NCBI RefSeq assembly: GCF_030409055.1
Contig: NZ_CP116619.1
Location: 1,521,628-1,585,627 of the forward strand
Length of the DNA stretch: 64,000 nucleotides
Reading direction: 5' to 3'
Source of the DNA: Trichocoleus desertorum NBK24
Lineage (GTDB): Bacteria > Cyanobacteriota > Cyanobacteriia > FACHB-46
The notes beneath the pieces were generated by a model. The model worked only from the letters and a program-made list of their open reading frames with translations, made no database searches and was not told the origin of the DNA. The position numbers and the translations under genes were made by a program. Below, one piece after another: positions 5,881 through 35,060 of this stretch; the first letter of the stretch is position 1; every line of letters starts with the position of its first letter.

Positions 5881-5942
5881 GAAAAATACTTTAATTATTT
5901 GACTGAAAATCCGATCCTCATCGCAGCTGACTACCTTAAATA

Positions 5943-6890: not shown

Positions 6891-7098
6891 TAAGTCGCTC
6901 CTCACAGCTTTTTATCGCTACAAAATAAGTTTTTCAAGGCGTAATTCTTGAAAGTCAGCTATTCTAATCCTTAGATTACTGCTACATAGTTCGTAGCGTA
7001 AACCGCTTTGCTGAAATGCATTCACGCAACTTTTAATCAATTCTTTTCAATTGAGGTTTGAGTTCACGTACTGTAATCTATTCGGAATGTTGTTGTAA

Positions 7099-9994: not shown

Positions 9995-10003
9995 GTGAAA
10001 ATC

Positions 10004-11218: not shown

Positions 11219-11277
11219 AAAGCTATTTGCCCCTGAGCTGAGCCTTGAACGTCTTCATCTATAAGGTAAGAAGTGGC

Positions 11278-12051: not shown

Positions 12052-12322
12052 AGGATAACCCTGTAGTTTTCAAGGAGACGGTTAGTGCGTTTTTGTGCTT
12101 TTACGTAGACCGAGGAGCGTTGAGGCGGGAACACGGACTGAAGCACTATGCCTCTACGTAGTAATACTAGCCAAAGGTAAAGCGATCCACTGTAAAAATC
12201 TGATAAATCAGGCTAGGGTTTCTGTAAAAACTCAAAGAAACCATTTACATGAGCTTGCAATTCTATGTAGAACCTATAAGTAGTCGCTCTAACTTGAAAC
12301 ACTGTCACAAGGTGATTGTTGA

Positions 12323-13990
12323 ATGCTAATTGATGCGCGTACCCTGCCTGCAGGCACAACGATTGAGTCTGATGTCTGCATTATTGGTGCTGGACCCGCA
12401 GGGATTACACTGGCACGCGAATTTATCGGACAGGACTTTCGAGTTTGTCTACTGGAGAGTGGCGGCGCTGATCCGGATCAAGCCACGCAGTCCCTTTGCC
12501 AAGGGGAGAACAGCGGTGACTTGTATCAGGACTTGTGTAAGTCGCGCCATCGCCAGTTCGGCGGGACGGCCAATGAATGGCATATCACCATTACGCCAGA
12601 AGAAATTGGGGGGCGTTGTGGCCCTTTGGAGGCGATCGATTTCGAAAAGCGGGACGGCATTCCCTATACTGGTTGGCCTTTCGATCGCGCCTACTTAGAC
12701 CCCTTCTATCGACGGGCGCAGCAGCTCTGTAGGATGGGGCCGTTTACCTATCAGGCTGAAGATTGGGAAGAAGCCCAAAGTCCTCGCTTGCCTTTCCTTG
12801 AAGGTAAGGTAGCGACAGCAGTTTATCAATTCACCCCTCGTAATGTGTTCACGCAGGAATACCAAGAAGATCTGCGACGAGCCGATAACATTACCACTTA
12901 TCTCCACGCCAATGTGCTGGATATTGAGACTAATGAAGTCGCCAAAACCGTGACTCGCTTGCAGGCTGCTTGTTTAGAAGGCGATCGCTTTTGGGTGACA
13001 GCAAAACTATTTATTCTGGCTACAGGCGGCATTGAGAATGCTCGTTTAATGCTGCTTGCCAACCAGAATCAAAATGTAGGATTGGGCAATCAAAATGACC
13101 TAGTTGGCCGATTCTTTATGGATCATCCTGGTCTCAGCTACATGTTTTTTCCTAAGCAGCGGCAAATCTTTAACTCCACAGGCTTGTACGACCTGCGAAA
13201 AGTTAAAGGATTTGCGATTAAAGGCAAGCTAGTGCTGACTGAAGAGGTCAAGCGGCGGGAGAAACTGCTAAATAGTGGCGCATTGATTCATCCTAGACCT
13301 CAAGGTTTCCGTTCTCAGGCGGTGAGTTCCTTGAAAACACTGCTTTCCTCCGCCCAAAAAGTCAAAGTTCCCTTCCAACCCTTTAAACACTTAGGCAATG
13401 TTGTCAGCGGAGCCGATGAGCTAGCCCTATCTGCTTATCGGCGGCTCAGGAAGATTCAGCCAATTCTACCGAACGATATTGAGGGCGGTTGGTCGCATCT
13501 TCCGAATAAAGAAAAACTGTTCGCGTCTTTCCAGATTAGCCAGATGATCGAACAGGCTCCGAATCCGGATAGCCGCGTCATGTTAAGTGATGAACACGAT
13601 CGCCTAGGCCGCAGAAAGGTAAAACTGCACTGGACCTGGCACGAGCTAGATGTCTACAGCGTCAAGCGTACTTACGAAATTCTAGATGCAGAGCTAAAAA
13701 GGTCAGGCATTGGTAGATTAGAAAGCGATTGGCAGTTTGAAGGGAAAGACTTAACTGACACTAGTGCCCACCATCATATTGGTGCGACCCGTATGCATAA
13801 TGACCCCAAGCAAGGGGTTGTGGATGAGAATTGTCAAGTACATGGCATTTCTAACTTGTTTATCGCAGGTAGTTCTGTGTTCCCCACAGGCGGTTACGTC
13901 AACCCCACCCTAACAATCATTGCGCTGGCACTGCGTCTAGCCGACCATGTCAAGCAACACATGGCTACCAAGGTCGCAAATATTAATTAA
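12323..13990 (+). CDS. GMC-family FAD-dependent oxidoreductase
   Basis: The 555-aa protein has the ADP-binding motif DVCIIGAGPAGITLAREF at residues 18-35. The flavin contact is at RHRQFGGTANEWHI. An ATGGIENARLM segment lies near 232. The GMC C-terminal block is HHIGATRMHNDPKQGVVD, then IAGSSVFPTGGYVNPTLTI, with the catalytic His in the HHHIGA region. Family members oxidise alcohols or sugars (glucose dehydrogenase, pyranose oxidase type). It is divergent from the rfbF operon across a 271-base gap, so it may oxidise a polysaccharide precursor (inference). No signal peptide is visible. Confidence 0.85.
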   Translation: MLIDARTLPAGTTIESDVCIIGAGPAGITLAREFIGQDFRVCLLESGGADPDQATQSLCQGENSGDLYQDLCKSRHRQFGGTANEWHITITPEEIGGRCGPLEAIDFEKRDGIPYTGWPFDRAYLDPFYRRAQQLCRMGPFTYQAEDWEEAQSPRLPFLEGKVATAVYQFTPRNVFTQEYQEDLRRADNITTYLHANVLDIETNEVAKTVTRLQAACLEGDRFWVTAKLFILATGGIENARLMLLANQNQNVGLGNQNDLVGRFFMDHPGLSYMFFPKQRQIFNSTGLYDLRKVKGFAIKGKLVLTEEVKRREKLLNSGALIHPRPQGFRSQAVSSLKTLLSSAQKVKVPFQPFKHLGNVVSGADELALSAYRRLRKIQPILPNDIEGGWSHLPNKEKLFASFQISQMIEQAPNPDSRVMLSDEHDRLGRRKVKLHWTWHELDVYSVKRTYEILDAELKRSGIGRLESDWQFEGKDLTDTSAHHHIGATRMHNDPKQGVVDENCQVHGISNLFIAGSSVFPTGGYVNPTLTIIALALRLADHVKQHMATKVANIN

Positions 13991-14435
13991 GCAGTGCTCA
14001 AGCAGTTAGGAGGGTTGGTCAACTGCCAATTCGACAGACGGGTGTAGGGGCAAATGGCTAGTCATCCTACGGAACTTACATTTACATCTGAGTAATCAAG
14101 TTTTCTGTCTACATGAATTTGCTGAAAATGTGAAGACCGCAACGAAAATTGTGGACGATCAAAAAGAGTGAGTAAGTTTACGTCATTCTTGCTAATAAGA
14201 ATGACGTACATAAATTAGCATCTGACAGATCAACTTCACAAAAGTGAACTCAACCTCAAAGACATTCATTACGACCTAGCAACTTCAGATGGATGATACC
14301 TCCAAAGCTTCTAGGGCAACCATACTAATTTTATGAAGTTCGCTATAGACCTAGGTGCAATCTGTGTGTAAACCCAACCAATAGGGCTACGTGCACTGGA
14401 CACAAAATTATTACATCAAATCAAAAGGAGTTTAT
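13991..14435. other. Noncoding gap between the GMC oxidoreductase and the GDSL hydrolase
   Basis: This 445-base stretch has no supported gene or tRNA. It contains the perfect hairpin at 14179-14208 and an AAAGGAG ribosome-binding site at 14424-14430 that decides the start of the next gene. Confidence 0.6.
14179..14208. repeat. Perfect 12-bp inverted repeat with 6-nt loop
   Basis: TACGTCATTCTT and its exact complement AAGAATGACGTA are separated by GCTAAT. No T-run follows on either strand, so a classic Rho-independent terminator is unlikely. A palindromic operator or a structured RNA are alternatives. Confidence 0.6.
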
Positions 14436-15206
14436 ATGAATGAACGGGTTGTTTTCTTTGTATTTGCAATTTCTATTTTTATAAACATTGCGTTTTCTTC
14501 GTTAGCAATTTACCTGCTAATCAAAAAAGGTGGTATTGGTTATACAGCGAAAAAGTTAAATCAATTCATGAAATCGAGCTTTTCACTACAGCATGGAGAG
14601 TCAGACAGTTCTGTAGTGTATCCGCCAAGTTATTTTCACCGCAAAAGCGTTTTTGGTGCTCTGAATCTATCCAAAAATAAAATAGTGTTTTTAGGGGATA
14701 GCATTACAGAGAGCTGTGAATGGTCAGAACTATTTAATAATACAAACTTAATAAATCGTGGCATAGGAGGTGATACAACAGACGGAATTTTAGGCCGCTT
14801 AGATGAGATACTCGAATCTTATCCTTGCCAGATATTCTTAATGGTTGGCATCAATGACTTGAATGCCGCACGAACGCAAGAACAGGTAGTATCCTATTAC
14901 AAGGAAATCTTGAGGCAGATTCAAACAACGTCACCTACGACTCAAGTATTTGTACAAAGTGTTTTACCTATAAATAAAGATTTTGATCGCAAAACATTTA
15001 AAGCTAACAATAAAGCCATCAGAGCGCTAAATTCTAAACTTCAGAGTTTGGCTGCAGACTTCTCCTTTCAATATTTAGACTTATTTTCTCACTTTATGAA
15101 TTCTCATCAAAAACTAGACACATGCTATACATTTGATGGGATTCATTTGAATGGGAAAGGATACATTGTTTGGAAACAGTTAATTGAGAAGTGGATAGTG
15201 GAGTAA
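14436..15206 (+). CDS. Membrane-anchored SGNH/GDSL hydrolase
   Basis: The 256-aa protein starts with an N-terminal membrane anchor (VVFFVFAISIFINIAFSSLA) followed by an SGNH hydrolase domain. Block I is IVFLGDSITESCEW with the nucleophile Ser. Block II is the Gly of NRGIGGDTTDG, block III the Asn of MVGINDLNA, and block V is DGIHLNGKGY with catalytic Asp and His. The ATG at 14436 is chosen over an upstream in-frame start because AAAGGAG lies 5 bases before it. Such enzymes remove acyl groups, often acetyl, from glycans. Acting outside the membrane on the local polysaccharide would fit the acetyltransferase next door. AT-rich compared with neighbours. Confidence 0.85.
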   Translation: MNERVVFFVFAISIFINIAFSSLAIYLLIKKGGIGYTAKKLNQFMKSSFSLQHGESDSSVVYPPSYFHRKSVFGALNLSKNKIVFLGDSITESCEWSELFNNTNLINRGIGGDTTDGILGRLDEILESYPCQIFLMVGINDLNAARTQEQVVSYYKEILRQIQTTSPTTQVFVQSVLPINKDFDRKTFKANNKAIRALNSKLQSLAADFSFQYLDLFSHFMNSHQKLDTCYTFDGIHLNGKGYIVWKQLIEKWIVE

Positions 15207-15219
15207 AAATTTCCTCACC

Positions 15220-16095
15220 TTAACTTCTAATAGCACAACTACTTTCAGGCACCATTTTAGTTATTTCAGGTACGACTTTAGTTGTCTCAGGTACGACTTT
15301 AGTTGTCTCAGGTACGACTTTAGTTGTCTCAGGTACGACTTTAGTTGTCTCAGGTACGACTTTAGTTGTCTCAGGTACGACTTTAGTTGTCTCAGGTGCC
15401 ATTTTAGTGACTGTTCCTATATCTATCGAGCGTTGCCCTACTACCTTAGCCGGAACTCCTACAGCGATCGAATAAGGAGGGATATCCTTCGTTACCACTG
15501 CGCCAGCCCCAATCACACTGCCCTGGCCGATCGTAACTCCATCCACAACCTTTACCCCCGTCCCTAGCCAACAATCATCTCCGATCACAATTCCCTCACA
15601 AGTCAGACCTTGTTCACGAATTTTATGATTCTGATCAGCAAAGATATGATTGTTCGCATAGATACCCACATGTGAGGCAATCAAACAATCCTTACCAATG
15701 GTAATCGGGCCAGGACCATGAATACAGGTATAGGGATTCACAGCGGTATGTTCGCCAATCTCAATCTGGCAGTTATCACCAGTTGTACGGATGTCTACCC
15801 CTCTATCTAGATGAACCCGATCTGCTAGAGAAATGCGATTATTTCGCCCCTTACTATCTACTCTGACCCCACGTTGAATGCTAACTCGATTTCCTATTTC
15901 GATACAGTCAGCCCCGACAAATTCTGCTCCCGGTCGAATGAAGACTGGGCTGCCCAGTTTTGCAAAGATAGATTGATAAAGTCTTTGACGGAGCACAAAA
16001 CCAGGAGATAATGGCACCCAACCCACAAGCGTGGTGATGAGAGCTTCTTGACGGTACGATCGCTGAGAAGTAAATGGAGCGGAGTCGAGGTTCAT
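15220..16095 (-). CDS. Hexapeptide-repeat acyltransferase with heptapeptide-repeat tail
   Basis: The 291-aa protein has residues 1-230 forming a left-handed beta-helix acetyltransferase of the WbbJ/maltose acetyltransferase type. It shows repeated [IV]G..[VC] hexapeptides, the catalytic His in YANNHIFAD, and IGAGAVVTKDIPPYSIAVGVPAKVVG at the helix end, an unmistakable family signature. The last 55 residues are tandem copies of VPETTKV, absent from normal family members. The ATG at 16095 is chosen; a TTG at 16110 is in frame. It likely O-acetylates a polysaccharide subunit. It is convergent with the SGNH hydrolase, 13 bases between stops, suggesting add/remove partners (inference). Confidence 0.85.
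   Translation of the reverse strand: MNLDSAPFTSQRSYRQEALITTLVGWVPLSPGFVLRQRLYQSIFAKLGSPVFIRPGAEFVGADCIEIGNRVSIQRGVRVDSKGRNNRISLADRVHLDRGVDIRTTGDNCQIEIGEHTAVNPYTCIHGPGPITIGKDCLIASHVGIYANNHIFADQNHKIREQGLTCEGIVIGDDCWLGTGVKVVDGVTIGQGSVIGAGAVVTKDIPPYSIAVGVPAKVVGQRSIDIGTVTKMAPETTKVVPETTKVVPETTKVVPETTKVVPETTKVVPETTKVVPEITKMVPESSCAIRS
15262..15409. repeat. 21-bp tandem repeat inside the acyltransferase gene
   Basis: The unit TCAGGTACGACTTTAGTTGTC is repeated at a 21-base period with six copies of the TACGAC core (15271, 15292, 15313, 15334, 15355, 15376). Diverged units lie at both ends. It is in frame and encodes the heptapeptide VPETTKV. Near-identity of the copies implies recent expansion by slippage. 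Confidence 0.92.
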
Positions 16096-16162
16096 AATCT
16101 TTGCTCTCAAGTGCTAAAAAGCTAGATGTAGGTGAGAAACTCCAGATGGGCTACAGGCAAAA

Positions 16163-17164
16163 CTACTCCCGAATCAACTGGGTAATTAGCGATCGCATAT
16201 CGCCTTGGGTTTCTCCTTGGCGGAAATCTTGCAAGATTTTCTTGGCACGGCGGACTTTCCGTTTGGCCCGCTCCACTAACGTGCGCTGCTTGGCCAACCA
16301 GTTATAGTATTTCTCTTGAATGGCTTTATCTGCCAAAGCATCTCGAATCACAAATTCTGGATGCTTTAAAGGAAACGACATGGGCTCTACAGGCATTGCC
16401 GCCCGCCAATCAAAGCTGTCTTTGGTATGCGTCGATTCATTACCAAAACCAATGTTTGAGACCAGATTCACATGAGGAACGATGCTAAGACCGCTTTGAA
16501 TCCAGCAATTCAAGACCCATTGATCATCCCAAGTGTCAAACCCGTTGTAAGTTCGTTCAAAGGCTCGGCTCCAATGGTCTGCCGTCTGCTCATCTCCTAG
16601 ACAATCTACTAACCAGCCAGAATCACGGATTTCTGGCCAGAGTTTCATGTTCACATCGTAGTGCTGCCAAACGCGCCGCCAAGTAGCCCAACCCCAAAGC
16701 AAGTTGTAGTGGGAGAAGGAGTAACTATACTGCGATCGCTGTCGCTGCACTTGATAACTGGTACCCGCAATACTCGTCACTCTTTCGTCGTCTTGATAGC
16801 GCTCTAGCAACTCATCGCAGAACCGGAAAAAGGTAGGGTCGGGCACACAGTCATCTTCCAAAACAATGGCGCGATCGACCGTGTCAAAAACCCAATCTAA
16901 ACCGCTGGCTATCCGAGCTTTACAACTCAAAAAACTATCTGCGTAGTTTTTGAATACTTGACAGTCCCAGTCAACCTGGTCAATAATGGCGCGAGTTTCA
17001 GCGCATTTCTCCGCTTCACCAGGTTGGTCGGGACGAAGGGCATTAGCAATCACTAATAGTTGAGGTGGCTTCGCTTGGCGAATTGCCTCAAACACCTTCT
17101 GCGTCGTACTAGGCCGCTTGTAAATTAAGAGAGCAACGGGTGTTTTTAAAGACCAGTCAGCCAT
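16163..17164 (-). CDS. Glycosyltransferase of the HlpA-like/GT2-GT13 type, copy 2
   Basis: The 333-aa protein is a paralogue of the gene at 5943-6890. It shows the same start region (KTPVALLIYKRPSTTQKVFEA), the donor strand LLVIANALRPDQPGEAEKC, the metal motif AIVLEDDCVPDPTFFRFC and a LLWGWATWRRVWQHY block. WIQSGLSIVPHVN and FPLKHPEFVIRDA are also shared with copy 1. The C-terminus is basic (RAKRKVRRAKKIL), perhaps for membrane contact. The ATG at 17164 matches the paralogue; the longer frame would need a TTG. It likely transfers a sugar to a surface glycan. Confidence 0.8.
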   Translation of the reverse strand: MADWSLKTPVALLIYKRPSTTQKVFEAIRQAKPPQLLVIANALRPDQPGEAEKCAETRAIIDQVDWDCQVFKNYADSFLSCKARIASGLDWVFDTVDRAIVLEDDCVPDPTFFRFCDELLERYQDDERVTSIAGTSYQVQRQRSQYSYSFSHYNLLWGWATWRRVWQHYDVNMKLWPEIRDSGWLVDCLGDEQTADHWSRAFERTYNGFDTWDDQWVLNCWIQSGLSIVPHVNLVSNIGFGNESTHTKDSFDWRAAMPVEPMSFPLKHPEFVIRDALADKAIQEKYYNWLAKQRTLVERAKRKVRRAKKILQDFRQGETQGDMRSLITQLIRE

Positions 17165-17288
17165 TGGAAGTTCCACCAATCACGATTCAAGACAACTGAG
17201 TTTACGCAACCGATCAATACTGAAGAAACATCGCTGAAGTTTAGATACCCTTCTCTCGAGAATCAACTTCATGAAATCTAAACCTTCC

Positions 17289-18473
17289 CTACCCACTTTT
17301 AGCTAGGACGCTATCATAAATAGCTTCCAGCTTGGCTGTATTATGCTTCAAGTTGAAGTGTTGGGTCATGCGCTGTCTACCCGCAGCCGCAAAGCGCTGC
17401 CGCACTTGGGGTTCTTGCAACAAGGTCAACAGATACTTAGCTAATGTCTCCCAGTCTCCTTCTGGAGCAAGAAACCCTGTTTCGCCGTGGGCGACTGCTT
17501 CAGGCACACCTCCCGTAGCAAAGCTCACCACAGGCAATTCCATCGCTTGGGCTTCGGCAAACACCATGCCAAATCCTTCTGCATCTCCGGTACGAGCTGT
17601 AATACTAGGCATGCTAAACACTGCTGCTCGGTTCATCCAGCCTTGTACTGCTTCTGGAGACTGGGCTCCCAAGAAGCGATAGTGTTTGAGTGAGTTGGCT
17701 GCTTGCTGCTCCAAAGTAGACCGCAAAGGGCCATCGCCAATCACTACAAGTTCCACATCGGGCAGGATAGTTTGGACTTGAGCGATCGCTCGAATTAGAT
17801 ACTCACAGCCTTTCTTCTCCACCAAGCGGCCCACAAATAGCACTACAGGTTCTCGGGCGATCGCTGGGTTTGGAGTAAATTTGTTTACATCCACACCAAT
17901 GTAATGAACTGTGACTTTATCGGCTGGGCACCCTTTTTTAATCAATTGCTCGCGGATAAACTCCGAGACGGCAATCACGCAACTTGCTTCGGCAAATAAC
18001 TGACCGCGCCTGCTTACGTAAAGATCTCGAAAGAATTGCCCGCGTTGAAATAAAAAGTCCCGTGGATTAACCCGTACCTGGCCTGAGGGGTTGCGGTCCA
18101 TGCCTGTAGCATCGTTGCCATGAAACGTCACAACTAGAGGTAAGCCTAACTTTCTGGCTAGAAATAGGCCCCAAATACCATCAATACCAAAGTGGGCATG
18201 AATGAGATCAGCCGATAACTCTTGCAGCGATCGCAACCATTGTGGCTGAACTACACTACCCAACTTGAGGGCCATCTTCCAAATGGCGGGAAAGGAGACG
18301 CAATCGCTTAAAGTGAGACTTCTACTGACTGGAATTAAAGCCGCTGCATTGGCAGTGCGTGAGGTGCCTACGTAGAACCCTGTATAGGCAGTCAAACTTT
18401 CCACTTGAGCAGGAATAAAGGTTTCCGAGTAGGGAAGTAGCAGATCCCGATAGATGATTACTTTTCGCTGCAT
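17289..18473 (-). CDS. Family 4 glycosyltransferase
   Basis: The 394-aa retaining GT-B enzyme has an N-terminal acceptor domain with AHFGIDGIWGLFLARKL and VTFHGNDATGM. The C-terminal donor domain starts at VLFVGRLVEKKGCEYLI (near 213). It has the E-x7-E motif in DAEGFGMVFAEAQAMELPVV (near 308) and SFATGGVPEAVAHGETGFL. It fits a hexose or hexosamine transferase of polysaccharide assembly. It is on the minus strand with the neighbouring transferases, but the gaps of 124 and 262 bases leave it unclear whether they form one operon. Confidence 0.9.
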   Translation of the reverse strand: MQRKVIIYRDLLLPYSETFIPAQVESLTAYTGFYVGTSRTANAAALIPVSRSLTLSDCVSFPAIWKMALKLGSVVQPQWLRSLQELSADLIHAHFGIDGIWGLFLARKLGLPLVVTFHGNDATGMDRNPSGQVRVNPRDFLFQRGQFFRDLYVSRRGQLFAEASCVIAVSEFIREQLIKKGCPADKVTVHYIGVDVNKFTPNPAIAREPVVLFVGRLVEKKGCEYLIRAIAQVQTILPDVELVVIGDGPLRSTLEQQAANSLKHYRFLGAQSPEAVQGWMNRAAVFSMPSITARTGDAEGFGMVFAEAQAMELPVVSFATGGVPEAVAHGETGFLAPEGDWETLAKYLLTLLQEPQVRQRFAAAGRQRMTQHFNLKHNTAKLEAIYDSVLAKSG

Positions 18474-18735
18474 GACATAGGCTCCAACTCGCAGGCTCCT
18501 CTTCTGCCATTAAATCGGCAACCGTGAGCAACTGGCTATGACTTGACCCGTCAGCCTGGCAACTTTTAACAAAACCACCCCCTCTTTCAGATTTGCATGA
18601 AGCGGTTGAGCGATCGCCATTCTTAAAAGCTGCCTAAAGCGATTGCCAAAACGTCAGCTTAAAAAGTACTCCCTTATGGCTTAGAGGCGCTCACCTCAAG
18701 TAGATCCACCCATCGACTTTGAAGTGTGGTTTTAG

Positions 18736-19725
18736 CTAAACCGAGGTCGAAAGCGAACCAGAGTATTTGCTGGGTACTTTCACTTCTAAATACTTTTCTC
18801 GCCAGAGAAAGAACGGACTAATCAGAATCCCCAGCAATAATTCCATTTCGCAGGCTGCAACTACATCCGTTTTAATGACTTGGTAGTACTTAATGAAGTG
18901 CAAAACTACCTTGCGGATATCATTCGCTAGGTAAACAGGAAAGATCAACGGTCTTTGCCAGCGCTTGAAGCCAATCATGCGAATGTGATGACGACCCAGA
19001 CCTGCTCCCCGGCATAAGTTGAGCAAGTAAGCTTTCTCTAACCGAGACTTGGGAATTTCGTGATAAATGCACATGGCTGGATTGTGCCAAATTTCCCAAC
19101 CCGCTTTCCTAAGATAGGCTAGGGCTTCAATATCTTCACTTTTAGCGGATAGTGATGTACCCACAGGACCGCGTAATAGGAGGCGGGAAGGTACGTTCTG
19201 TAACCAAGCTTGCTTACGCACGACCAAGCCTGCACCGGGGGGTAGCACCTTGTCACCGTAGCGAAACACTTGCTGACCTCGGTCAATAATGGCTAAGAAA
19301 GTGGCGATCCGTTCAAAATTTTGTGGCGGTGCAACTTCAAAATTGCCCCGAACCTGCCCACCATAAGCTCCTGCTTGAGGATGCTGCTGACCAAACGTGT
19401 AGGCGTTGGCTACCCAGTCTGGAGTCGGCAAATTATCGTCGTCCAAAAAGCCAATAAAGGTACCTTGGGCTTCTCGAATCGCGCGCTGTCTGGCAAAGGC
19501 TGCACCTTGCTCTGCTTCAAAAGCGTATCTGATGGGAAAAGCTTGGGGCCAGTCGGCTTGGTAAGCTTGAACAACCTTTTTAGTGTTGTCGCTACTGTTG
19601 TTATCAACAATTACTATTTCCCAGGAAAAACCTTGAGTCCCTACTTGCGATCGCAACCGATCCAAAACTGCAGGTAGGCGCTTTTCCCCGTTATAAGTGC
19701 GTATGGCGACAGTGAAGTCAATCAT
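18736..19725 (-). CDS. Family 2 glycosyltransferase, HpsE-like
   Basis: The 329-aa GT-A enzyme begins IDFTVAIRTYNGEKRLPAVL. It has EIVIVDNNSSDNTKKVV, the metal motif FIGFLDDDNLPTPDW (near 90) and a C-terminal hydrophobic segment (LLLGILISPFFLW). The N-terminal VAIRTYNGE style and overall length resemble HpsE of the hormogonium polysaccharide locus in filamentous cyanobacteria, but the other hps genes are not in the window, so the name is tentative. The ATG at 19725 is used; an upstream TTG at 19761 would add 12 residues that do not look like the family. Confidence 0.8.
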   Translation of the reverse strand: MIDFTVAIRTYNGEKRLPAVLDRLRSQVGTQGFSWEIVIVDNNSSDNTKKVVQAYQADWPQAFPIRYAFEAEQGAAFARQRAIREAQGTFIGFLDDDNLPTPDWVANAYTFGQQHPQAGAYGGQVRGNFEVAPPQNFERIATFLAIIDRGQQVFRYGDKVLPPGAGLVVRKQAWLQNVPSRLLLRGPVGTSLSAKSEDIEALAYLRKAGWEIWHNPAMCIYHEIPKSRLEKAYLLNLCRGAGLGRHHIRMIGFKRWQRPLIFPVYLANDIRKVVLHFIKYYQVIKTDVVAACEMELLLGILISPFFLWREKYLEVKVPSKYSGSLSTSV

Positions 19726-20298
19726 GATGGTTTGCGATCGCTCTAGGTGTAACTGTCTCAACTTAAATAGAACCTGAATAGCCTTAAGCTCGCTTGTCCC
19801 TGACTCACCCCTTGCTCCCTAAACTAATAGGCTGAACCAAATCGCGATCAAACCGTATAGCTTTATACTTAACCTGCGACAGACACGTAGACTGGAGCGA
19901 TAAAATTGGGATGTTGAGAGGCTATAGGCTATAAATCTGTTCTAAGTACGGATAAGTGCAGGAGATCCCTCTAAAGGTGGATTCAAGCTTACGTAAATCT
20001 GCGGATGTGTAACGTAACTATATTCCAAATATTTAAGCTGCTGCTACTCATAAATCTGTATCTTCATCTCAAATTTAAACTTGTAGAGTCGCTCTAGTAG
20101 CAATATAAAGCTTGAGTGAAAGCTCTCCACCCAACTCTAATCGCTCACTGCGCCCCTGGTAACTACACTTAAGAAGTAAACAGCTTCCTTGGGATAGGAA
20201 AACTGTTTACTTAAAGTCTTCATCTTCGTAGAACGCAGGCCGAATGCTAGCTCAACACTCGATAGGGCTGCTAGGCTCTACTATCCAACCGACTTGAG
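19726..20298. other. Noncoding gap between the HpsE-like gene and pepA
   Basis: 573 bases with no convincing gene. It holds the hairpin at 20174-20212 downstream of pepA and should hold the promoter of the glycosyltransferase on its left side. Nothing else is recognised. Confidence 0.55.
20174..20212. terminator. Strong hairpin downstream of pepA
   Basis: AAGTAAACAG (20174-20183) pairs perfectly with CTGTTTACTT (20203-20212), and TTCCT/AGGAA extends the stem inward after a bulge. It lies 87 bases past the pepA stop. No clear T-run follows, so termination is likely but not textbook. Confidence 0.5.
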
Positions 20299-24337: not shown

Positions 24338-25318
24338 TTAGAAGTTCATTTCAGCAGCTTGCACTTTCTCAACTTGCTTCTTCTTCAGGACTAGCATGAT
24401 TTGAGAGAGGGTTACAGCCGCAAAGAAGGCAATCAATCCTTGAATGCGAGCAGGGCTTTGGAGCACGATTTCTGTGTCAACCTGACCGAAACCACCCACA
24501 TTCGGATCAGAAGTCAGCGCTTCACCCGCTTTAACTTCCTGACCTTCAGCCGCCACTAGCTCAGGGCCAGCGGGAATATTGTCTACAGTTGTGTTGCCAT
24601 CTGCGGTTTGAATCGTGACCGCATAGCCACCGCTTTCCGCCTTGGCAATTTGGGTGATTTTGCCTGCCACAGAAGCGTTGTAGATGGCGTTGTTGCTCTT
24701 GTCGCCTGTGGGGTAAACCTGTCCACGACCCCGGTTGCCACCCACGTTGATTTGGTACTTACCAAAGTGCACAGACTTATCGGTATTGGGGTTGGGGGAG
24801 AGAACGGGGAAGGTCAGCTCTTGGTACTGCTCACCTGGCAGCGGCCCCACCACCACAATGTTGTCTTTTTCAGCACTGTAGGGTTGGAAGTACAGCCCAC
24901 CAATTTTTTCCTTCATCTCCTCTGGGATTCTGTCCTCAGGGGCGATCTTAAAGCCTTCGGGCAAGATCAACACAGCACCCACATTTAAGGGGCCTTTTTC
25001 ACCGTTGCCCAACACCTGTTGTACGTTGGTGTCGTAAGGAATTTTGACGACGGCCTCAAACACGGTATCGGGTAGAACGGCTTGAGGCACTTCTACTTCA
25101 GTCCGCTTAGCGCCCAAGTGACAGTTGGCGCAAACAATTCGTCCGGTGGCCTCACGAGGATTTTCGTAGGCTTGCTGCGCATAAACCGGATAAGCGGCGG
25201 CAGACTGGGGCAGTACCAGATCACTCCCCAGGAAAATGGCGATCGCACTAATAGCGGCAAACGTAACGCGCCAGAGGTATCGCGGAGCGAATATCGCTGA
25301 CAAAAAAGTTTTCTTCAT
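24338..25318 (-). CDS. petA: Cytochrome f
   Basis: The 326-aa c-type cytochrome of the thylakoid cytochrome b6f complex passes electrons from the Rieske protein to plastocyanin or cytochrome c6. The signal peptide ends at [12 protein letters not shown], where the mature N-terminal Tyr also ligates heme iron. The heme-binding motif is VCANCHLG (near 58). The lumenal domain holds the family blocks [18 protein letters not shown] and [10 protein letters not shown]. The single C-terminal anchor is [20 protein letters not shown]. It is cotranscribed with petC, which lies 88 bases upstream, and ends at a strong terminator. Confidence 0.98.
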
Positions 25319-25406
25319 CTGTAGTGAGTCTTCAATAGCAAAGGATCAGGCAGTCAATACACAAGACAGGATTCAACGTCTCACGATTGGTAAAAACGAT
25401 CAATTC

Positions 25407-25946
25407 CTAGGACCACCAGGGGTCATCACCTGTACGGAAGTCAGTTTCGGTCCAAGGGGTAAAGGCGACTTTGTCATCCTGAACCGTGGCGTGAACTAGA
25501 GCGAGAGACAGCGGTGCTGGACCCCGGACCACCTTGCCAGTGTTGTCATACTGCGAACCATGACAGGGGCAGATAAACTTGTTTTCTCCACTATTCCAGG
25601 GCACGACACAGCCCAAGTGAGTGCAGACCGCATTGATGCCGTAGCTAGCGAGCGCTTGATCGCCTTCTACCACGATATAGGTGGGATCGCCTTTGAGACC
25701 TTGAGCTAAGGCACGCTCACCAGTCTTGTGGCTGGCTAGGAAATCACTCACGAGGATGTCATTGCCGAGCGCATCCTTCGCAGTAACACCACCACTACCA
25801 CTGCCACTAGAGGGCGGGATGAAGTATTTAACCACAGGATAAAGTGCGCCCAAGGCTGTGCCTGTGACTGCACCAAACGTGAGGAAATTCATAAATTGGC
25901 GACGACCCATGCTAGGTACGTCTGCAGATCCAGAGACTTGAGCCAT
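25407..25946 (-). CDS. petC: Rieske iron-sulfur protein of cytochrome b6f
   Basis: The 179-aa protein oxidises plastoquinol at the Qo site and passes electrons to cytochrome f. An N-terminal arginine-containing region ([10 protein letters not shown]) precedes the membrane segment ([17 protein letters not shown]), consistent with Tat-type insertion and retained anchoring. The glycine-rich hinge is SSGSGSGG. Cluster-binding boxes are [10 protein letters not shown] (near 108) and CPCHGSQYD (near 126). It is first in the petC-petA operon. tatC itself lies 6 kb away in this window. Confidence 0.98.
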
Positions 25947-26240: not shown

Positions 26241-26558
26241 ATGACAGGACAAGATTTACATCAACTCATTCTCCGTAAATGGGGCCGCTCCTACGATGTC
26301 CAGGTGCGACGGACGCAGGGCAAAATCTTTGTTCAAGTTATGTGGAAGTATTTAGAACAGGCTTCTTTCCCCCTCACAGAAGCTGAGTATTTTGCCCATC
26401 TGGAAACCATCAGCAGTTACTTAGAGGCTTGGGGTGGTTCCAGCCAAGTGCAGCAGTTTATTGAACAGACTAAAGAGCGACCTCGCTTAGGTAAGGCTGT
26501 GAGTATTCCCCTCGATCTAGGCGATCGCGCGTCTGAGTGGTTGCTAGAAGAATTTTAA
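26241..26558 (+). CDS. DUF3067 family protein
   Basis: The 105-aa small soluble protein belongs to a family of cyanobacteria and plastid-bearing eukaryotes. The conserved pattern LILRKWGRSYDVQVRR and VMWKYLEQASFPLTEAEY are readable. The C-terminus GKAVSIPLDLGDRASEWLLEEF is also typical. It is divergent from petC across 294 bases, a neighbourhood that suggests a link to photosynthetic electron transport, but the function is not established from the sequence. Confidence 0.8.
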   Translation: MTGQDLHQLILRKWGRSYDVQVRRTQGKIFVQVMWKYLEQASFPLTEAEYFAHLETISSYLEAWGGSSQVQQFIEQTKERPRLGKAVSIPLDLGDRASEWLLEEF

Positions 26559-27416: not shown

Positions 27417-28721
27417 ATGGTAAAAACCCCAACTAAGCCCCTTGGCCTCCAAGAGTTCGTTGCAGTTCCTCCTGATGCCGATTACAGGTTGCCTGATTTT
27501 CAGAAAAAGCGGATTTGGCAAAGGTTACTTGTCGGGGCAGCATGCCTGGGGTTAGGAGCCACGGCGATCGCCTTTGGCCTGTCCTCAGTTACCTATCGCC
27601 TCACCCACGCCACGGTAGATGGTGGCCTGATCAGCGGTCGGACAGTGCGATTGCGGGCTCCCATTGATGGCAAAATCAAAGCGTTTTACGCTCGTCCAGG
27701 TGCCCCAGTTAAGTCAGGCCAAGTTTTGGCTCGCCTAGAAAGCACCGCCCAGGTAGAGCAGAATCTGTTGCAGTTGCAAGGTGAAGTGCAAACTAAAACA
27801 GCACAATTGGTCGCTGCCAAGCAATCCTTAGCCTTTTTGCAGCAGCAGCTAGGCAGTTTAGAAATTCAAGACAAGACCTTGCAGACAGTCAACACAGGGC
27901 TTTCGGCAAGAGAAGTCACCCATCAGCAAGCTGCGGTTGAGGCAGCGATGGCTAAGGAAAAAGCTGCTCGCCTAGACTACCAGCGCTACCAGCAGTTATT
28001 GGGAGAAGGCGCGATTTCTCGCCAGAAAGTAGAGCAGCTGGAGTTCGTCTGGAAAGCGGCTGAGGCAGAAGTCAAGCAAGCTCAGGCTGAGTTGTCTTCA
28101 GCTCAAGCCTCCTTGAGTGCTTTGCAAGACGGAGTAGCACTGACCCCAGGGGCAACTTTAGCTGACCAACGGATGAACTTGATGCGTAGCGTTCAAGGCC
28201 AAGCGACTCAAATCGAAACGCTCGAAGCTGAGTTGGACAGTAGCCAAAAACAACTGAAAAAAGCCCAAGCTGAGTATAGCGATCGCCAAGACATTGAAAT
28301 TTCAGCTCCTTTTACGGGCGTGGTCTACAGCACCGAGCATGACCAAGGAGAGCAAGTAAATCGCCCCGACACCCTGATGACCTTGCTGGACTGTAATGAC
28401 CTCTGGGTAGAAACGCTGGTCTCCACTCAACAAGCGAATCAGATTGACAGTAGTAAGCCCGTGAGAGTCCAACTGGCTGGAGCCGAAGATACTTTCGTGG
28501 GCGAGGTCGAGTTGATTGAGGCGATCAACCGAGCTGAATTGGCGAAAGACCAGGCTCAAGCTTTAGTTCCTGCGGTTGCTTCTAATTTAGTCGGTCAACC
28601 TTTATCTAAGGTAACTGTACGAATTCCACCAACCCTTCAACAGTCGCAGACTAACCAATTTTGTGGAGTAGGGCAGTCAGCTCGCATGACCTTTGGCACC
28701 AAGCTGTTTGCCGCTAAGTAG
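27417..28721 (+). CDS. HlyD-type membrane fusion protein, Alg44-like periplasmic subunit
   Basis: The 434-aa protein has a single N-terminal membrane segment (LLVGAACLGLGATAIAFGLS, near 40-60). Next is a lipoyl/barrel-sandwich half (VRLRAPIDGKIKAFYARPGAPV). A long coiled coil follows (about 110-295, rich in Q, E, A). Then come the second lipoyl half (ISAPFTGVVYSTEHDQGEQV) and a beta-barrel. The ATG at 27417 is preferred to a TTG at 27375. It precedes the Alg8-like synthase by 167 bases. In alginate systems Alg44 has this fold plus a c-di-GMP-binding PilZ domain. No PilZ domain is visible here, so regulation must differ. Confidence 0.85.
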   Translation: MVKTPTKPLGLQEFVAVPPDADYRLPDFQKKRIWQRLLVGAACLGLGATAIAFGLSSVTYRLTHATVDGGLISGRTVRLRAPIDGKIKAFYARPGAPVKSGQVLARLESTAQVEQNLLQLQGEVQTKTAQLVAAKQSLAFLQQQLGSLEIQDKTLQTVNTGLSAREVTHQQAAVEAAMAKEKAARLDYQRYQQLLGEGAISRQKVEQLEFVWKAAEAEVKQAQAELSSAQASLSALQDGVALTPGATLADQRMNLMRSVQGQATQIETLEAELDSSQKQLKKAQAEYSDRQDIEISAPFTGVVYSTEHDQGEQVNRPDTLMTLLDCNDLWVETLVSTQQANQIDSSKPVRVQLAGAEDTFVGEVELIEAINRAELAKDQAQALVPAVASNLVGQPLSKVTVRIPPTLQQSQTNQFCGVGQSARMTFGTKLFAAK

Positions 28722-28888
28722 TTTTGAATGGCAGTGGGTTGCTTTAGGTTGCAATGGGCGATCGCCCACTCCAGTAGCCTGCAATACCTTCAATAACTTG
28801 CAGTACCTTCAATCCAAGCATCAGGGTGCAAGGGGTCAGTTTCTTTCAAGCTTTGTGCTGCTTACTTGCAGGAATCATTTGAGTCATT

Positions 28889-31087
28889 ATGAAATCTACT
28901 GCATCAGCTCCCAAAACCCTCAGTGCTCAACTTAATTTGTTGGCATTTCTGTTTTTCCCAGTCCTAGGTCTGACGGGTCTCTATGTCTTACAAAACCCTG
29001 GCAACCTAGCGATTTGGGATGTGTTTGGTCTCATCAGCTTAGGTGCAGTGGGTCTATGGCGCTGGGCTTGGTTTCTCTTCCGCTTGGTGCGATCGCGGGT
29101 TTACCTGCATTGGGTGTTTCCCCGTTGGCGGCGCTGGGCCAATAAGGTTCCGGTCGAGCATTTGCCCCACGTTTGTTTGCTTGTCCCAACTTATAAAGAG
29201 AAGCCTTGGATTACAGAGCGGGTGTTTCGGGCGATCGCGCGAGAAGCCAGAGATATGGCACAACCGATCACCGTTCTGGTCAGTAGCAGCAGCGATGAAG
29301 AAAATGCCTCGGTTGTAGAAATTCTGAAGTCTGAAGATCCAGAACTCAAAACGGTTCGCCTCGTCTTAATGACGCAGAAGGATGGAAAGCGCAAGGCGAT
29401 GGCTGACGGCTTGCGAGAACTAGCCCAGCTAAATCTGCCCACAGATACGATTGTCGCCTTGATGGATGGTGACTCAGAACTCGCTCCAGGCACGCTACGC
29501 CAGTGTCTACCCTTTTTCCGCATGTTCCCCAAGATGGGAGCCTTAACCACCGACGAGTTGCCAGTAGTCGAAGGCTCTTACCTATTTTCGGAGTGGTTTC
29601 ACCTACGATTTGCCCAACGCCACAACCAAATGTGCTCAGACTCGCTCTCACGCAAGGTGATGTGCTTGACAGGGCGATTTTCTCTATTTCGAGCCGAGGC
29701 GGCGTTGCATCCCACCTTTGCCATGCAGCTCGAAAACGACACCCTAGATGACTGGCTGTGGGGACAATTTAAGTTTCTGTCTGGAGACGATAAGAGCACT
29801 TGGTTCTGGCTACTGCAACGCGGCTACGAAATGCTCTACATCCCCGATGTCATTGTTTACTCAATTGAGACGATTTCGGGTTCCTTTATCGATCGCGCCT
29901 ACCAAAATATGCGTCGCTGGTACGGCAACATGCTACGGAACAACAACCGAGCGATCGCCCTTGGGCCTCATCGGATTGGTTGGGCTACTTGGTACAGCTT
30001 GCTCGATCAGCGCATTAGTATTTGGACTTCGCTGATTACCCCCGGTCTTTTACTGATTTCGTTTCTGCAAGGTCATTGGGTCGCGGTTGGCATTATTTCG
30101 TCTTGGATTTGTTTTAGCCGCCCGTTGATGTTGCTACTGATTTTCTGGGGTCGCAGTTCTGAGCTACGTCCGATTCACTTCCCAATTTTGCTGCTGTCTC
30201 AGTGGGCTTCAGCCGTAGTCAAGGTGTGGACGCTAATGAATCTGGCTAAGCAGAATTGGTCGAACCGGGGAAATCAAAGTATTTCGGCAGAAGGCTCTGG
30301 TTTGGAAAGAGTCGCCAAGCTGAGCACTTCTCGATTCCTGCTGGGAGCTCAAGCTTTTAGTTTCATTATTTTCCTCTTATGGTTATCTGGCTCTATTAAC
30401 CCCGTTTGGGATTTGGAAGGCTGGTGGCTTAACCGTCAAGTAGTAGCCCAGCAAATGCCGTTGGAAATTGTGGAAGCGATCGATCGCGGGATAATTCCTA
30501 ACGACAATCAAGATGATTCTGCCGCTTTACAGGCGTTAATTGCTCGTTTGCCCCAATCCAGCCAGGTGCAGATTAATTTGCCAATCGGTGAAATCGATCT
30601 ATTCAAGCCTGTAGAAATCAATCGGGGTGACATTAAGCTCAAGGGCCAAGGCATGTCGCGGACCATTTTGCAGGCTCATTTCGATCGCGAAGCTGGGGAA
30701 GCGGTGCTTTCTATTCAGCCGAAAGGAGAGGGCGATCGCAACACCAAATCTACAGCTCAGCCTGTATCTCACACCGCCAAAGCCGTTGTAGACAAGCTGA
30801 GAAATGTGGAGCTGAGTGGCTTCACGATGCGGCAGATTCTGCCTAAGTCTGCGGTTGTTTCTGAATACGCGATCGATAGTATTTACTTACGACAAGTTGA
30901 GCAAGCCACTGTGAGGAATTTACATCTGGAGCGGAGTGGCCGCAATCCCTTAGTCCTGAACTCAACTCAAGATGTAACGGTGGAATATGTGGCAGTGGAT
31001 GGCAGTTTGAATCGGGGTGAGATTGTCATGCAGGATGCGGTCAATACCCAAACGAAAGGGGTGACTTTGCCGACTTCTTTGTCTTAG
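28889..31087 (+). CDS. Alg8-like processive glycosyltransferase fused to a parallel beta-helix domain
   Basis: The 732-aa protein starts with two membrane segments (residues 10-60). The cytosolic GT2 domain has VCLLVPTYKEKPWI, the metal motif IVALMDGDSELAPG (near 195) and QLENDTLDDWLWG as acceptor-site acid. AYQNMRRWYGNMLRNN is the QxxRW-type motif of processive enzymes. The phrase RRWYGNMLR...DQRISIWTSL closely resembles alginate polymerase Alg8. More membrane segments follow (about 385-500). After the last, residues 530-725 read as a pectate-lyase or AlgG/AlgE-like beta-helix (DDSAALQALIARLP, NVELSGFTMRQI, ATVRNLHLERSGRNPLVL), likely outside the membrane. This fusion is unusual. Confidence 0.85.
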   Translation: MKSTASAPKTLSAQLNLLAFLFFPVLGLTGLYVLQNPGNLAIWDVFGLISLGAVGLWRWAWFLFRLVRSRVYLHWVFPRWRRWANKVPVEHLPHVCLLVPTYKEKPWITERVFRAIAREARDMAQPITVLVSSSSDEENASVVEILKSEDPELKTVRLVLMTQKDGKRKAMADGLRELAQLNLPTDTIVALMDGDSELAPGTLRQCLPFFRMFPKMGALTTDELPVVEGSYLFSEWFHLRFAQRHNQMCSDSLSRKVMCLTGRFSLFRAEAALHPTFAMQLENDTLDDWLWGQFKFLSGDDKSTWFWLLQRGYEMLYIPDVIVYSIETISGSFIDRAYQNMRRWYGNMLRNNNRAIALGPHRIGWATWYSLLDQRISIWTSLITPGLLLISFLQGHWVAVGIISSWICFSRPLMLLLIFWGRSSELRPIHFPILLLSQWASAVVKVWTLMNLAKQNWSNRGNQSISAEGSGLERVAKLSTSRFLLGAQAFSFIIFLLWLSGSINPVWDLEGWWLNRQVVAQQMPLEIVEAIDRGIIPNDNQDDSAALQALIARLPQSSQVQINLPIGEIDLFKPVEINRGDIKLKGQGMSRTILQAHFDREAGEAVLSIQPKGEGDRNTKSTAQPVSHTAKAVVDKLRNVELSGFTMRQILPKSAVVSEYAIDSIYLRQVEQATVRNLHLERSGRNPLVLNSTQDVTVEYVAVDGSLNRGEIVMQDAVNTQTKGVTLPTSLS

Positions 31088-31121
31088 GGGCTGCTAGATT
31101 TCATTTGCTAAAACTAAGCCC

Positions 31122-31168
31122 TTGGGGGCGCTTGCCCCCAAACCCCCGCTGAGGGACGGTTGCGTCCC
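31122..31168. repeat. Tandem perfect hairpins after the Alg8-like gene
   Basis: TTGGGGGC-GCTT-GCCCCCAA (31122-31141) and GGGACG-GTTG-CGTCCC (31153-31168) lie in the gap between the convergent synthase and lyase genes. This GC-rich double-hairpin style (CTTGGGGGCGCTTGCCCCC...) resembles dispersed intergenic repeats of cyanobacteria (from memory, not searched). It may serve as a bidirectional terminator. Confidence 0.7.
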
Positions 31169-31282
31169 CCAGACCCCCTCCAAACGAACCTGGGTGGGGG
31201 TATTTCGATAGCTTTGTTTCCTCAGTTGCGTACTTCCTCTCCTCACCCCTCACCCCTCTCTCCTCACTTTTCAAGGAGAGGA

Positions 31283-32236
31283 CTAGTTTACTGCTGCAAC
31301 GGCAAAGTCAGCGAAGTCTACGTATACGTCTTTGCGTGTGGCCCAGGAGGGGTCGTTGCCGCCAAAGAAGGTGGAGAAGAAGATGCCGTCTATCTTAAGT
31401 TTGTCGGTGGAGCGGAAGGTGAGTCCTTCTTGATTGAGTACTTGTTTGCCATCGAGCCACACGCGGACTTGTCCATCTTTACGACCCGGTTGGTTGAGTA
31501 CAACTTCTTGCTCTAGGCGATGCCAAACTCCCGGCTTAAAGCGCCATTTGCCGCGCCCAATGGAGGTGCCATATTTGTCGCTGGTGGGGAGGTAGGCGTA
31601 CAGTTCTCCTGCACCATTTTTGCGCCACATGAAGCGAGTGGAAAAACCATCCGTGCCGTCGGGAGTATCCCCGCCACTCTTGCTGTCACCGCCAAACAAG
31701 CCTGGAAGTTTCCCTCCCCGGATGTAATCAAAATTGTCTGAGAACCGGACGGAGTAGCTGAGTCGTAATGTATCTCTAGGAGCCAAGTTAAGATCCGCGA
31801 GAAACTGAGCACCACCCAAAGGGGCACGGTACTTGCGAGCAACGGTAGGGCTAGCGGAACGAGCTGGATATTTGACACGCAGCACTTTACTAAACTTTCC
31901 GGTCGGGTCTGAAATAACTTCAATGTTTTCGAGTCCCCAATCCTTTTGTTTACGAGTGCCCCAATGCTGCTGCCAGTCGCCTTCGTCAAAGCGACTAGAC
32001 CAAAGAAGATTGCTAAAGTTTTGGGCAATTTGAGGACTAGTTTGAGCAATATCGATTGGAACAGGGGAGGAATCTACTTTTACCGGATCGAGGAGGGCAC
32101 AGCCGCTCAGCACCAAGAGGGCTGAAACAGTACCGAGGGCGGCGGGTCGCTGGAGAAGTCGTAAAAACGTCAATTGTCGGTGTAGTCGCTGAGCTAGCTG
32201 CTCTGATTTGTGAAGCTGAGACAATTTTAAGTTCAA
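31283..32236 (-). CDS. Polysaccharide lyase family 14-like lipoprotein
   Basis: The protein has about 317 aa. The N-terminus has basic residues, a hydrophobic stretch and the lipobox LVLSGCALL (near 45), so it is a lipoprotein. The rest is a beta-jelly-roll domain with RVKYPARSASP, SYSVRFSDNFDYIRGGKLPG and the catalytic-style FSTRFMWRKNGAGELYAYL. IDGIFFSTFFGGNDPSWA is characteristic of alginate/glucuronan lyases of family PL14. The start is a TTG; the true start may lie slightly downstream. It is convergent with the Alg8-like synthase, so it probably trims the same polymer outside the cell or in the periplasm (inference). Confidence 0.8.
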   Translation of the reverse strand: MNLKLSQLHKSEQLAQRLHRQLTFLRLLQRPAALGTVSALLVLSGCALLDPVKVDSSPVPIDIAQTSPQIAQNFSNLLWSSRFDEGDWQQHWGTRKQKDWGLENIEVISDPTGKFSKVLRVKYPARSASPTVARKYRAPLGGAQFLADLNLAPRDTLRLSYSVRFSDNFDYIRGGKLPGLFGGDSKSGGDTPDGTDGFSTRFMWRKNGAGELYAYLPTSDKYGTSIGRGKWRFKPGVWHRLEQEVVLNQPGRKDGQVRVWLDGKQVLNQEGLTFRSTDKLKIDGIFFSTFFGGNDPSWATRKDVYVDFADFAVAAVN

Positions 32237-32353: not shown

Positions 32354-33193
32354 TTAACGACCGAGCAGTTTTACGCAACCGATGCCACTAAAGTAAAGGC
32401 CCACGACTGCACCCCCCAAGAGGCTCTGAGTCAGCGGATCGGTGGAGGGGGTTAGCACAGCACCGAGAACGGCAGCGCCTAGAATGACATATCGCCAACC
32501 CGAAAGCATCTGAGCTGAAGAAACAATGCCTATTAAACCCAGAAGCAATTGGATCACAGGAATCTGAAAAGCCAAGCCAGTGCTAAACATCAACAGCAGC
32601 ACAAACTCAAAATAGCGATCGATCGACCACAGTTGCTCAACTACATCTGCACCATAGCTAATAAAGAAATTGAGGGCGGCAGGAATCAAGGCAATGTAGG
32701 CAAAGACAAGCCCTGCCGCAAACAAGCCACTCGAACCAAGCACAATCGGCCCAATGAATCGACGTTCGCGCCTTGTCAAACCGGGCAAAACAAACTGAAT
32801 AATTTGGTAGAGGATGAAGGGACTGGCCACTAGCAACCCGCTGTAACCCGCAACTTTAATGGAAACAAAAAAGTATTCACCGGGAGCCAGTTGAAGAAAT
32901 TTGACCCCTTGAGCAGGAACTTCAAGTAACTGGACGATGGGCTTGACTGTGGCGAAGCAACCGATAATCCCGACAACTGCGGCAATTAAGGAGTAGAAGA
33001 TCCGTTGTCGCAACTCTTCTAAGTGATCGAACAAAGACATTTCGACTTCATCGGGTAACTCATCGAAATAGTCAGTTTCATCTTCACTAGCAGAGGTTTT
33101 GGGTGCAACGCTCAGGTCTTGTGAGGCTGCGGGGTCTGAATTAAGGTCCAAACGCTGCTCGGATGCAGTCTCTAGTTCTGAGGGAGCCGTCAT
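32354..33193 (-). CDS. tatC: Sec-independent (Tat) translocase subunit TatC
   Basis: The 279-aa polytopic core receptor of the twin-arginine pathway has six membrane segments. The signature [19 protein letters not shown] lies near residue 53. [13 protein letters not shown] and the Pro-rich turn segments of the family are present. The first 50 residues form an acidic soluble extension ([16 protein letters not shown]), longer than in E. coli TatC. In cyanobacteria it serves export to the thylakoid lumen and periplasm; the Rieske protein PetC in this window is a likely client. Confidence 0.95.
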
Positions 33194-33488: not shown

Positions 33489-35060
33489 ATGCTCCAATTT
33501 AGTTCTAAGAAGCACGAGTACTTAACGGCACTACTCGTCTTTTTTACATTTTGGTTTTCACTATTTATAATGAGTGGCTCGTTGTTTTCAGGCTATCACT
33601 TCACTGATGACCATGAGATTACAGCAATTCACTATGACTTTGTGCATCATCACTCTAATTTATTTGAAATTATAAAGCAGTGGCTTTTAGCAGATCACCT
33701 ATCTGGGAGATTTCGGCCTTTTTATTATGCTCATCGTATTGTTGAGACCAGGCTTTTTGGAGTCAACCTTTTCCTATGGTCAATATATACAGGGATGCTA
33801 GCTGTCCTGACAACTTTTTTTCTGTTTATCTTCGGAAAATTCTTAAATCTCTCATTTTCAGCAGCAATTGCATTGGCTTTTCTAACTACTTTTGGTGCTC
33901 AGTCTGCAATTTGGTGGCAGCTTGGACCCGCCGAAACAGTTGGGTTATTTTTATTGTCATCATCTCTATTTTTTGCGGGATTAAGTGCGACCACGAACCA
34001 ACACAAAAGATTTTGTCAAAGTGGTTTTGTAATTTCTACTGTTTTAATGTCTTTATGTAAGGAAAGTTTAGTAGTAGCCATTCCAGCGATCGCTTTCATT
34101 CAGGTCTGGCTATCTTATAGGAACAGTGCTAAAACTTGGCGACGCGCCATCCAAGATAATCAGTTGTCCCTCGCGGTGCTGGGCTTGGTTGGCTTGACAG
34201 AGCTGTTTTTTATTAAATACTTTTTAGGACTCAGGGGGACTGGATACGCTGGTGTTGAGAAAACAGACTTCTCCAAGCTCTCGCTAGTAGCCAAAACACT
34301 GAATCATTATGGTTCGGGATGGATCATTTTACTTGCAATTGCTTTGATTCTGATTGCTAACCGTAAATCTAATCTTCAGCAATCTACTTGGTCATTACTG
34401 AAAACAGCTTATGCTCCGATTTTATTATTCATTCTTCTAGTAGTACCACAGCTAGTTGTTTATGCAAAATCTGGTATTTCTCAACGCTATTTACTGCCCG
34501 CAGTTCTTGGTTATTCGCTCTTAATTGCATTGCTCTATCAGCATTTTCAAAATAATCACAAAAGCCTAAGTGATATTGTATTAGGACTGATCACAGTCAG
34601 CCTTGCGATCAATCTTAGCTTGGCATGGAATGCTGCTCGTATATTTGCTGCGGAAGGCCAATCCACCCAAGTGCTTCTAGAAACAATTGAGAAAAACACT
34701 GAAATCAATGAGCCAATCTTACTAATTACTCATCCTTTGGCATATGTAGAATGGAATTTATCAATTAAGCGGTATCTCAATTACATTTCTAAGCGCAATA
34801 ACTTATATCTAGGAATCTACAGCCCCCGAAAAGATCAATACTTTACGAAGGCAGTAGAAATATACGAACAAAAAACGCTAGAGCAGCTCTCAAACAAAGA
34901 CCAGATCCAGTGCATCATTGTCTTTCCTGAGTTAAATAATGCTTTTTTGAGGCGTTCAGCTGACTGGTTTGTCAAAACGAACTATCAAGCTTATGCCTTT
35001 GGAAATTTCAACCGTAATTTGAATCCCAACTCTGAAATCCATCTTTACTGCAAAAAGTAG
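33489..35060 (+). CDS. Polytopic membrane protein, possible GT-C glycosyltransferase
   Basis: The 523-aa protein has about ten hydrophobic segments spread over residues 15-390, then a soluble C-terminal domain of about 130 residues. The first extracytoplasmic loop contains FTDDHEITAIHYDF and SGRFRPFYYAHRIVE. Acidic residues in loop 1 and an RFRP-type motif are seen in membrane GT-C transferases that use lipid-linked sugars, but no signature is decisive. The gene is clearly AT-richer than tatC and sbcC on either side, a sign of horizontal transfer. Function unknown. Confidence 0.6.
   Translation: MLQFSSKKHEYLTALLVFFTFWFSLFIMSGSLFSGYHFTDDHEITAIHYDFVHHHSNLFEIIKQWLLADHLSGRFRPFYYAHRIVETRLFGVNLFLWSIYTGMLAVLTTFFLFIFGKFLNLSFSAAIALAFLTTFGAQSAIWWQLGPAETVGLFLLSSSLFFAGLSATTNQHKRFCQSGFVISTVLMSLCKESLVVAIPAIAFIQVWLSYRNSAKTWRRAIQDNQLSLAVLGLVGLTELFFIKYFLGLRGTGYAGVEKTDFSKLSLVAKTLNHYGSGWIILLAIALILIANRKSNLQQSTWSLLKTAYAPILLFILLVVPQLVVYAKSGISQRYLLPAVLGYSLLIALLYQHFQNNHKSLSDIVLGLITVSLAINLSLAWNAARIFAAEGQSTQVLLETIEKNTEINEPILLITHPLAYVEWNLSIKRYLNYISKRNNLYLGIYSPRKDQYFTKAVEIYEQKTLEQLSNKDQIQCIIVFPELNNAFLRRSADWFVKTNYQAYAFGNFNRNLNPNSEIHLYCKK

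Follow-up and report, generated by a model that had tools for sequence, protein, structure and literature searches.

The window analysed in our study, a stretch of 64,000 nucleotides from Trichocoleus desertorum NBK24, carries the genes of a polysaccharide synthase, a membrane-fusion protein and a polysaccharide lyase side by side, which the initial annotation read as a compact alginate-like locus. This raises the question of whether the three genes work as a unit in cyanobacteria and, if so, which polymer NBK24 produces with them.

A recurring three-gene module

The three open reading frames described by the initial annotation were confirmed. An HlyD/Alg44-like membrane-fusion protein (MFP; 27417..28721, forward strand), with an ATG start and an in-frame TTG at 27375, is followed by a 732-residue GT2 synthase of the Alg8 clade (SYN; 28889..31087, forward strand) and by a convergent 317-residue polysaccharide lyase of family PL14, a predicted lipoprotein (31283..32236, reverse strand). 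A high-copy dispersed repeat (31100..31268), matched at least about 40 more times in each of two congeners, separates SYN from PL14. One flank of the module is a petA-petC cluster read by eye (24338-25946, reverse strand), beside which the Pfam scan placed a DUF3067 gene (26241-26558); the other is tatC, also read by eye (32354-33193, reverse strand). Elsewhere in the window, we observed a 523-residue membrane protein to which Pfam assigns no family convincingly (33489-35060), at whose site congener G002 has different open reading frames, and a putative second surface-glycan cluster, suggested by eye from its glycosyltransferase, nucleotidyltransferase and epimerase-like genes (4954-19818).

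Chance does not account for the three-gene observation, because dN/dS between NBK24 and G002 is low (0.038 for MFP, 0.041 for SYN and 0.103 for the lyase) and the three genes recur together across many genera. SYN is present in 24 of the 291 sampled genomes of the class (about 8%) and in 29 of the 387 genomes of a larger draw that overlaps the first; order-level sampling yielded just one extra, fragmentary copy (G292). The module of this 68% complete MAG (L106) appears split over several reading frames, by assembly error or decay. All 24 SYN-bearing genomes carry PL14, versus 6 of the 267 without SYN (Fisher 7e-30, with genomes treated as unrelated). These six are G012, G026, G058, G197, G219 and G260, the last of which (78% complete) has a second-type GDP-mannose dehydrogenase. 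MFP lies upstream of SYN in 25 of the 26 distinct cyanobacterial loci besides NBK24, the exception (L052) ending at a contig edge, and PL14 lies on the fetched stretch in 21 of them. Two of the five stretches without PL14 (L004 and L053) stop close by, and PL14 is found elsewhere in the genomes of L034, L046, L052 and L053. L040, which lies on the same contig as L005, and L103 and L104, which are the same as L006 and L007, were left out of these counts, and the proteobacterial L008 was kept apart from them. The orientation of PL14 relative to SYN differs among loci, and the flanks of the module are mostly unrelated between them. In congener G001 the module is gone by a single deletion (27510..32124 in window coordinates), with about 31 first codons of MFP and about 37 codons of PL14 left. 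MFP, SYN and PL14 are a real recurring module; their co-occurrence, recurrence and differing flanks support the initial proposal that the three parts form one functional unit.

Domains and relatives of the three proteins

SYN consists of an N-terminal transmembrane region, a GT2 domain (residues 93-347; Glyco_tranf_2_3, E 7e-34), a C-terminal transmembrane region and a beta-helix-like C-terminal piece, with hydrophobic stretches near residues 10-56 and 376-507. Its motifs include D193-G-D195, TTDE and DDK. A tblastn search of SYN against 72,556 plasmid records gave 14 matches, all of them alphaproteobacterial, and the six loci that we fetched have AlgD directly upstream and Alg44 downstream of the matched synthase. 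The four of these six loci that are annotated also hold nucleotidyltransferase and beta-helix genes, and MBOAT, AlgF, Sel1 or alginate-lyase genes occur in some. On a Tateyamaria plasmid, a PF14099 lyase ("heparin lyase I family"; L075, 7300-8250) is located directly upstream of AlgD in the alg locus. By these plasmid matches, rather than by an outgroup tree, SYN stands nearer to Alg8 than to the other GT2 synthases, which agrees with its initial description as Alg8-like: its closest relatives outside cyanobacteria are Alg8 proteins encoded beside AlgD. L008, a MAG locus titled Methyloligella, bridges the two types by combining a PilZ-HlyD MFP, Alg8, AlgD and PL14.

The C-terminal piece of SYN (residues 515-732; 30431..31084, forward strand), which the initial annotation did not mention, contains the start of a pectate-lyase/RHGA-like beta-helix and is probably periplasmic. 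Pfam gives it a weak Pect-lyase_RHGA_epim match (E 0.0013, residues 530-643), and PF12708 was found in 10 of the 13 family members scanned (best E 5e-9). A beta-helix C-terminus is present in all 27 cyanobacterial SYN examined, with varying length and several of them shortened; the tail of L053 ends at the contig end. Given that hhalign against epimerases returned a probability of 4.5%, we claim no epimerase identity for this tail.

MFP has one N-terminal transmembrane helix and matches HlyD_3 (E 1.7e-16) and HlyD_D23, and the Pfam scan found neither PilZ nor EAL in it. Taking Alg44 as a protein that joins PilZ and HlyD_3, the L008 protein belongs to this type and the NBK24 protein does not. 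Both the initial description of an Alg44-like subunit without PilZ and the suggestion that it does not bind c-di-GMP directly are in line with these results. Across the family, the N-terminus of MFP carries PilZ (L008), EAL (L004, L007, L036 and L047) or neither (NBK24). The DDFGTG and EGVE motifs of the four EAL-type proteins look eroded by eye, which suggests that their EAL domain senses c-di-GMP instead of hydrolysing it. Within the family, the c-di-GMP input thus seems to have been replaced, EAL for PilZ, and, in NBK24, lost.

The lyase matches Polysacc_lyase_14 (PF21294, E 7.7e-65) and carries an LSGC lipobox (residues 43-46), as anticipated by its initial reading as a convergent PL14-like lipoprotein. 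Its top solved folds are 5gmt (an alginate lyase) and 3a0n (the glucuronate-acting vAL-1), and the solved relative that it matches best is the polyM lyase AkAly30. Across 23 family members 46 positions are invariant, including the cleft residues GGKLPG and FS.R...Y.Y, which, like the fold, are shared with AkAly30 and vAL-1; fold, family profile and conserved cleft residues all place the protein among the PL14 lyases. The NBK24 enzyme differs from both in being a predicted lipoprotein tied to a synthase.

Compared with the proteobacterial alginate system (AlgD-Alg8-Alg44-AlgK-AlgE-AlgG-AlgX-AlgL), the NBK24 module shares an Alg8-clade synthase, an HlyD-type partner and a uronate lyase. It differs from that system in the beta-helix tail of its synthase, in the position of MFP upstream of the synthase and in having neither AlgD nor PilZ; AlgK, AlgE and AlgIJF were not seen in the NBK24 locus either, and no outer-membrane partner was identified there. 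Where two roseobacter alg loci have an "alginate lyase family" protein, NBK24 has PL14.

Sugar donor and residue signature

The initial annotation called for a search of the genome for GDP-mannose dehydrogenase. In the one-contig 5.46-Mb genome of NBK24, this enzyme (AlgD) is absent. The only nucleotide-sugar dehydrogenase present groups with UDP-glucose dehydrogenases with 100% support and carries their active-site string, and the NBK24 locus holds no mannuronan C5-epimerase. Alginate proper is not supported for this organism, AlgD being missing. UDP-glucose dehydrogenase is a common gene that also has other uses, so its presence in NBK24 proves little.

Some relatives present a different gene content. 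Linked AlgD was found in 5 of the 31 SYN-bearing cyanobacterial genomes (26 are without it): four have it in one locus (L042, L044, L046 and L047), and in the fifth (G314) the genes lie on two contigs. For AlgD of L042, the best match is 1mfz, a GDP-mannose dehydrogenase of the P. aeruginosa type (9e-118), and the next best stands at 1.8e-68. L046 encodes a cupin of the mannose-phosphate isomerase/GMP C-terminal type, homologs of which occur in L042 and L047. AlgE-like beta-helix proteins accompany AlgD in these relatives, including all four single-locus cases, and one was found to match AlgE4. The PDB matches of the L042 protein are only mannuronan C5-epimerases (four hits; 2pyg, 2.7e-32), YGFDPHE is invariant in three aligned beta-helix proteins (L042, L047 and L102), and the L046 protein ends in RTX repeats. 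AlgD and epimerase-like proteins are thus features that the five relatives share with the proteobacterial system, and the gene content of these relatives makes alginate their most likely product. As far as the available text of three genome surveys goes (PMC4594306, PMC4971617, PMC6256058), no complete synthase-dependent alginate pathway is described in cyanobacteria, and the apparent alginate locus is not among their findings. A locus for alginate or glucuronan in a cyanobacterium did not turn up in our literature search, which mostly stopped short of full texts. We also observed a second subfamily of GDP-mannose dehydrogenases in cyanobacteria (L059, L060 and L090; 40-43% identity), which adjoins glycosyltransferase-like genes in L059 and L060; none was found linked to SYN.

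Residues of both enzymes differ between AlgD-plus and AlgD-minus genomes. SYN position 345, which directly follows RRW in the motif RRWYGNM (codon 29921..29923, forward strand, in NBK24), is F or S in all five AlgD-plus cyanobacterial synthases and in all seven proteobacterial Alg8 proteins, and Y in 23 of the 26 AlgD-minus cyanobacterial synthases, including that of NBK24; the three exceptions, with F345, are MAGs of one genus that are 62-79% complete. G389, with Y345, has an unlinked GDP-mannose dehydrogenase of the second subfamily. In PL14, all 20 AlgD-minus copies have S at position 187, where the four AlgD-plus cyanobacterial copies have N, D, T or D; at position 222, Y is present in 18 of the 20, and the four have H, N, H or Q. 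The PL14 copies of the L046 genome, located outside the locus, were left out. NBK24 has S187 and Y222, in loops that differ in AlgD-plus relatives. By our own alignment, residue 187 falls in the loop described as setting the polyM preference of AkAly30 in the available text on that enzyme (PMC8618178), and the NBK24 loop differs from it by not having the AkAly30 cysteines.

A prediction fixed before the new genomes agreed in four of four cases for position 345 (G314, G309, G369 and G292) and in two of two for positions 187 and 222 (G314 and G309). SYN column 471, which initially set the two groups apart as well and was considered as a second specificity residue, was rejected after G314 presented the "wrong" residue. 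In permutations, two separating columns occurred in 1 of 5000 random SYN sets of four and in 1 of 1540 PL14 triples (the true triple), fractions that are not p-values, given the relatedness of the rows and a criterion set once the data had been looked at. On the SYN tree, two changes suffice for the AlgD-plus synthases, which may have a single origin, so the residue signature represents one or two evolutionary events; an independent-pairs test, which has no power here, was not significant. An AlphaFold model of SYN (six sequences, mean pLDDT 64) was too weak for ranking folds or for placing Tyr345, a putative specificity residue.

Readings of the locus and their meaning

From its sequence, we consider it probable that the module is an Alg8-family system for a uronic-acid polymer, which would be alginate in AlgD-plus relatives and probably a glucuronan-like polymer in NBK24. 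Of the initial reading, the unit of an Alg8-like synthase, an Alg44-like MFP and a PL14-type uronate lyase is supported, and alginate proper in NBK24 is not. At the inner membrane, SYN would polymerize a uronic-acid sugar nucleotide and push the chain outward, where its short periplasmic beta-helix tail may touch the emerging polymer. MFP would span the periplasm and lead to an outer-membrane channel whose gene lies elsewhere, and the lipoprotein PL14 would cleave, by beta-elimination, chains that are stray or finished. Alginate would be the expected product of relatives with AlgD, the mannose-phosphate isomerase/GMP-type cupin and AlgE-like epimerases; in NBK24, where GDP-mannose dehydrogenase is missing, UDP-glucuronate is the most likely donor and a glucuronan-like polymer the most likely product. 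A more specific proposal, which we put forward tentatively and regard as somewhat doubtful, is that one synthase family makes two sister polymers, alginate where AlgD and AlgE-type epimerases are present and glucuronan in the majority, including NBK24, with a donor/acceptor switch in the residue beside RRW and in matching lyase loops.

It seems unlikely that NBK24 makes true alginate or polymannuronate, with GDP-mannuronate coming from an unrecognized enzyme or a promiscuous UDP-glucose dehydrogenase. SYN does belong to the Alg8 clade, whose six plasmid loci examined all pair it with AlgD, and the affinity of PL14 to AkAly30 would also fit, but the sole dehydrogenase of NBK24 falls among UDP-glucose dehydrogenases, and Y345, S187 and Y222 are unlike the residues of AlgD-plus members. 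The layout of GT2 synthase, HlyD-like protein and degrading enzyme is in turn shared with the XcsA/XcsB/XcsC cellulose system of Thermosynechococcus, for which the available text proposes export through TolC (PMC12430437), and SYN could accordingly polymerize a neutral sugar (mannan, cellulose or mixed glucan). We regard this as very unlikely: XcsA has a PilZ domain and QxxRW and XcsC is an endoglucanase (same text), whereas SYN has no PilZ in the Pfam scan, carries QNMRRW and is partnered by a uronate lyase; moreover, none of the six fetched plasmid matches is a cellulose locus. Finally, the varying orientation of PL14 and the six genomes that have it without SYN would suit a lyase with an unrelated scavenging or defensive role that just happens to lie beside the synthase, a reading to which we give hardly any credence in view of the presence of PL14 in every SYN-plus genome and of loop residues that shift with the AlgD status of the locus.

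Under our preferred reading of a uronic-acid polymer system, the module supplies named genes for testing an acidic matrix polymer in cyanobacteria, and the AlgD-plus relatives are a candidate phototrophic source of alginate. The family would also serve as a natural experiment in which sugar specificity changes jointly in a polymerase and its lyase.
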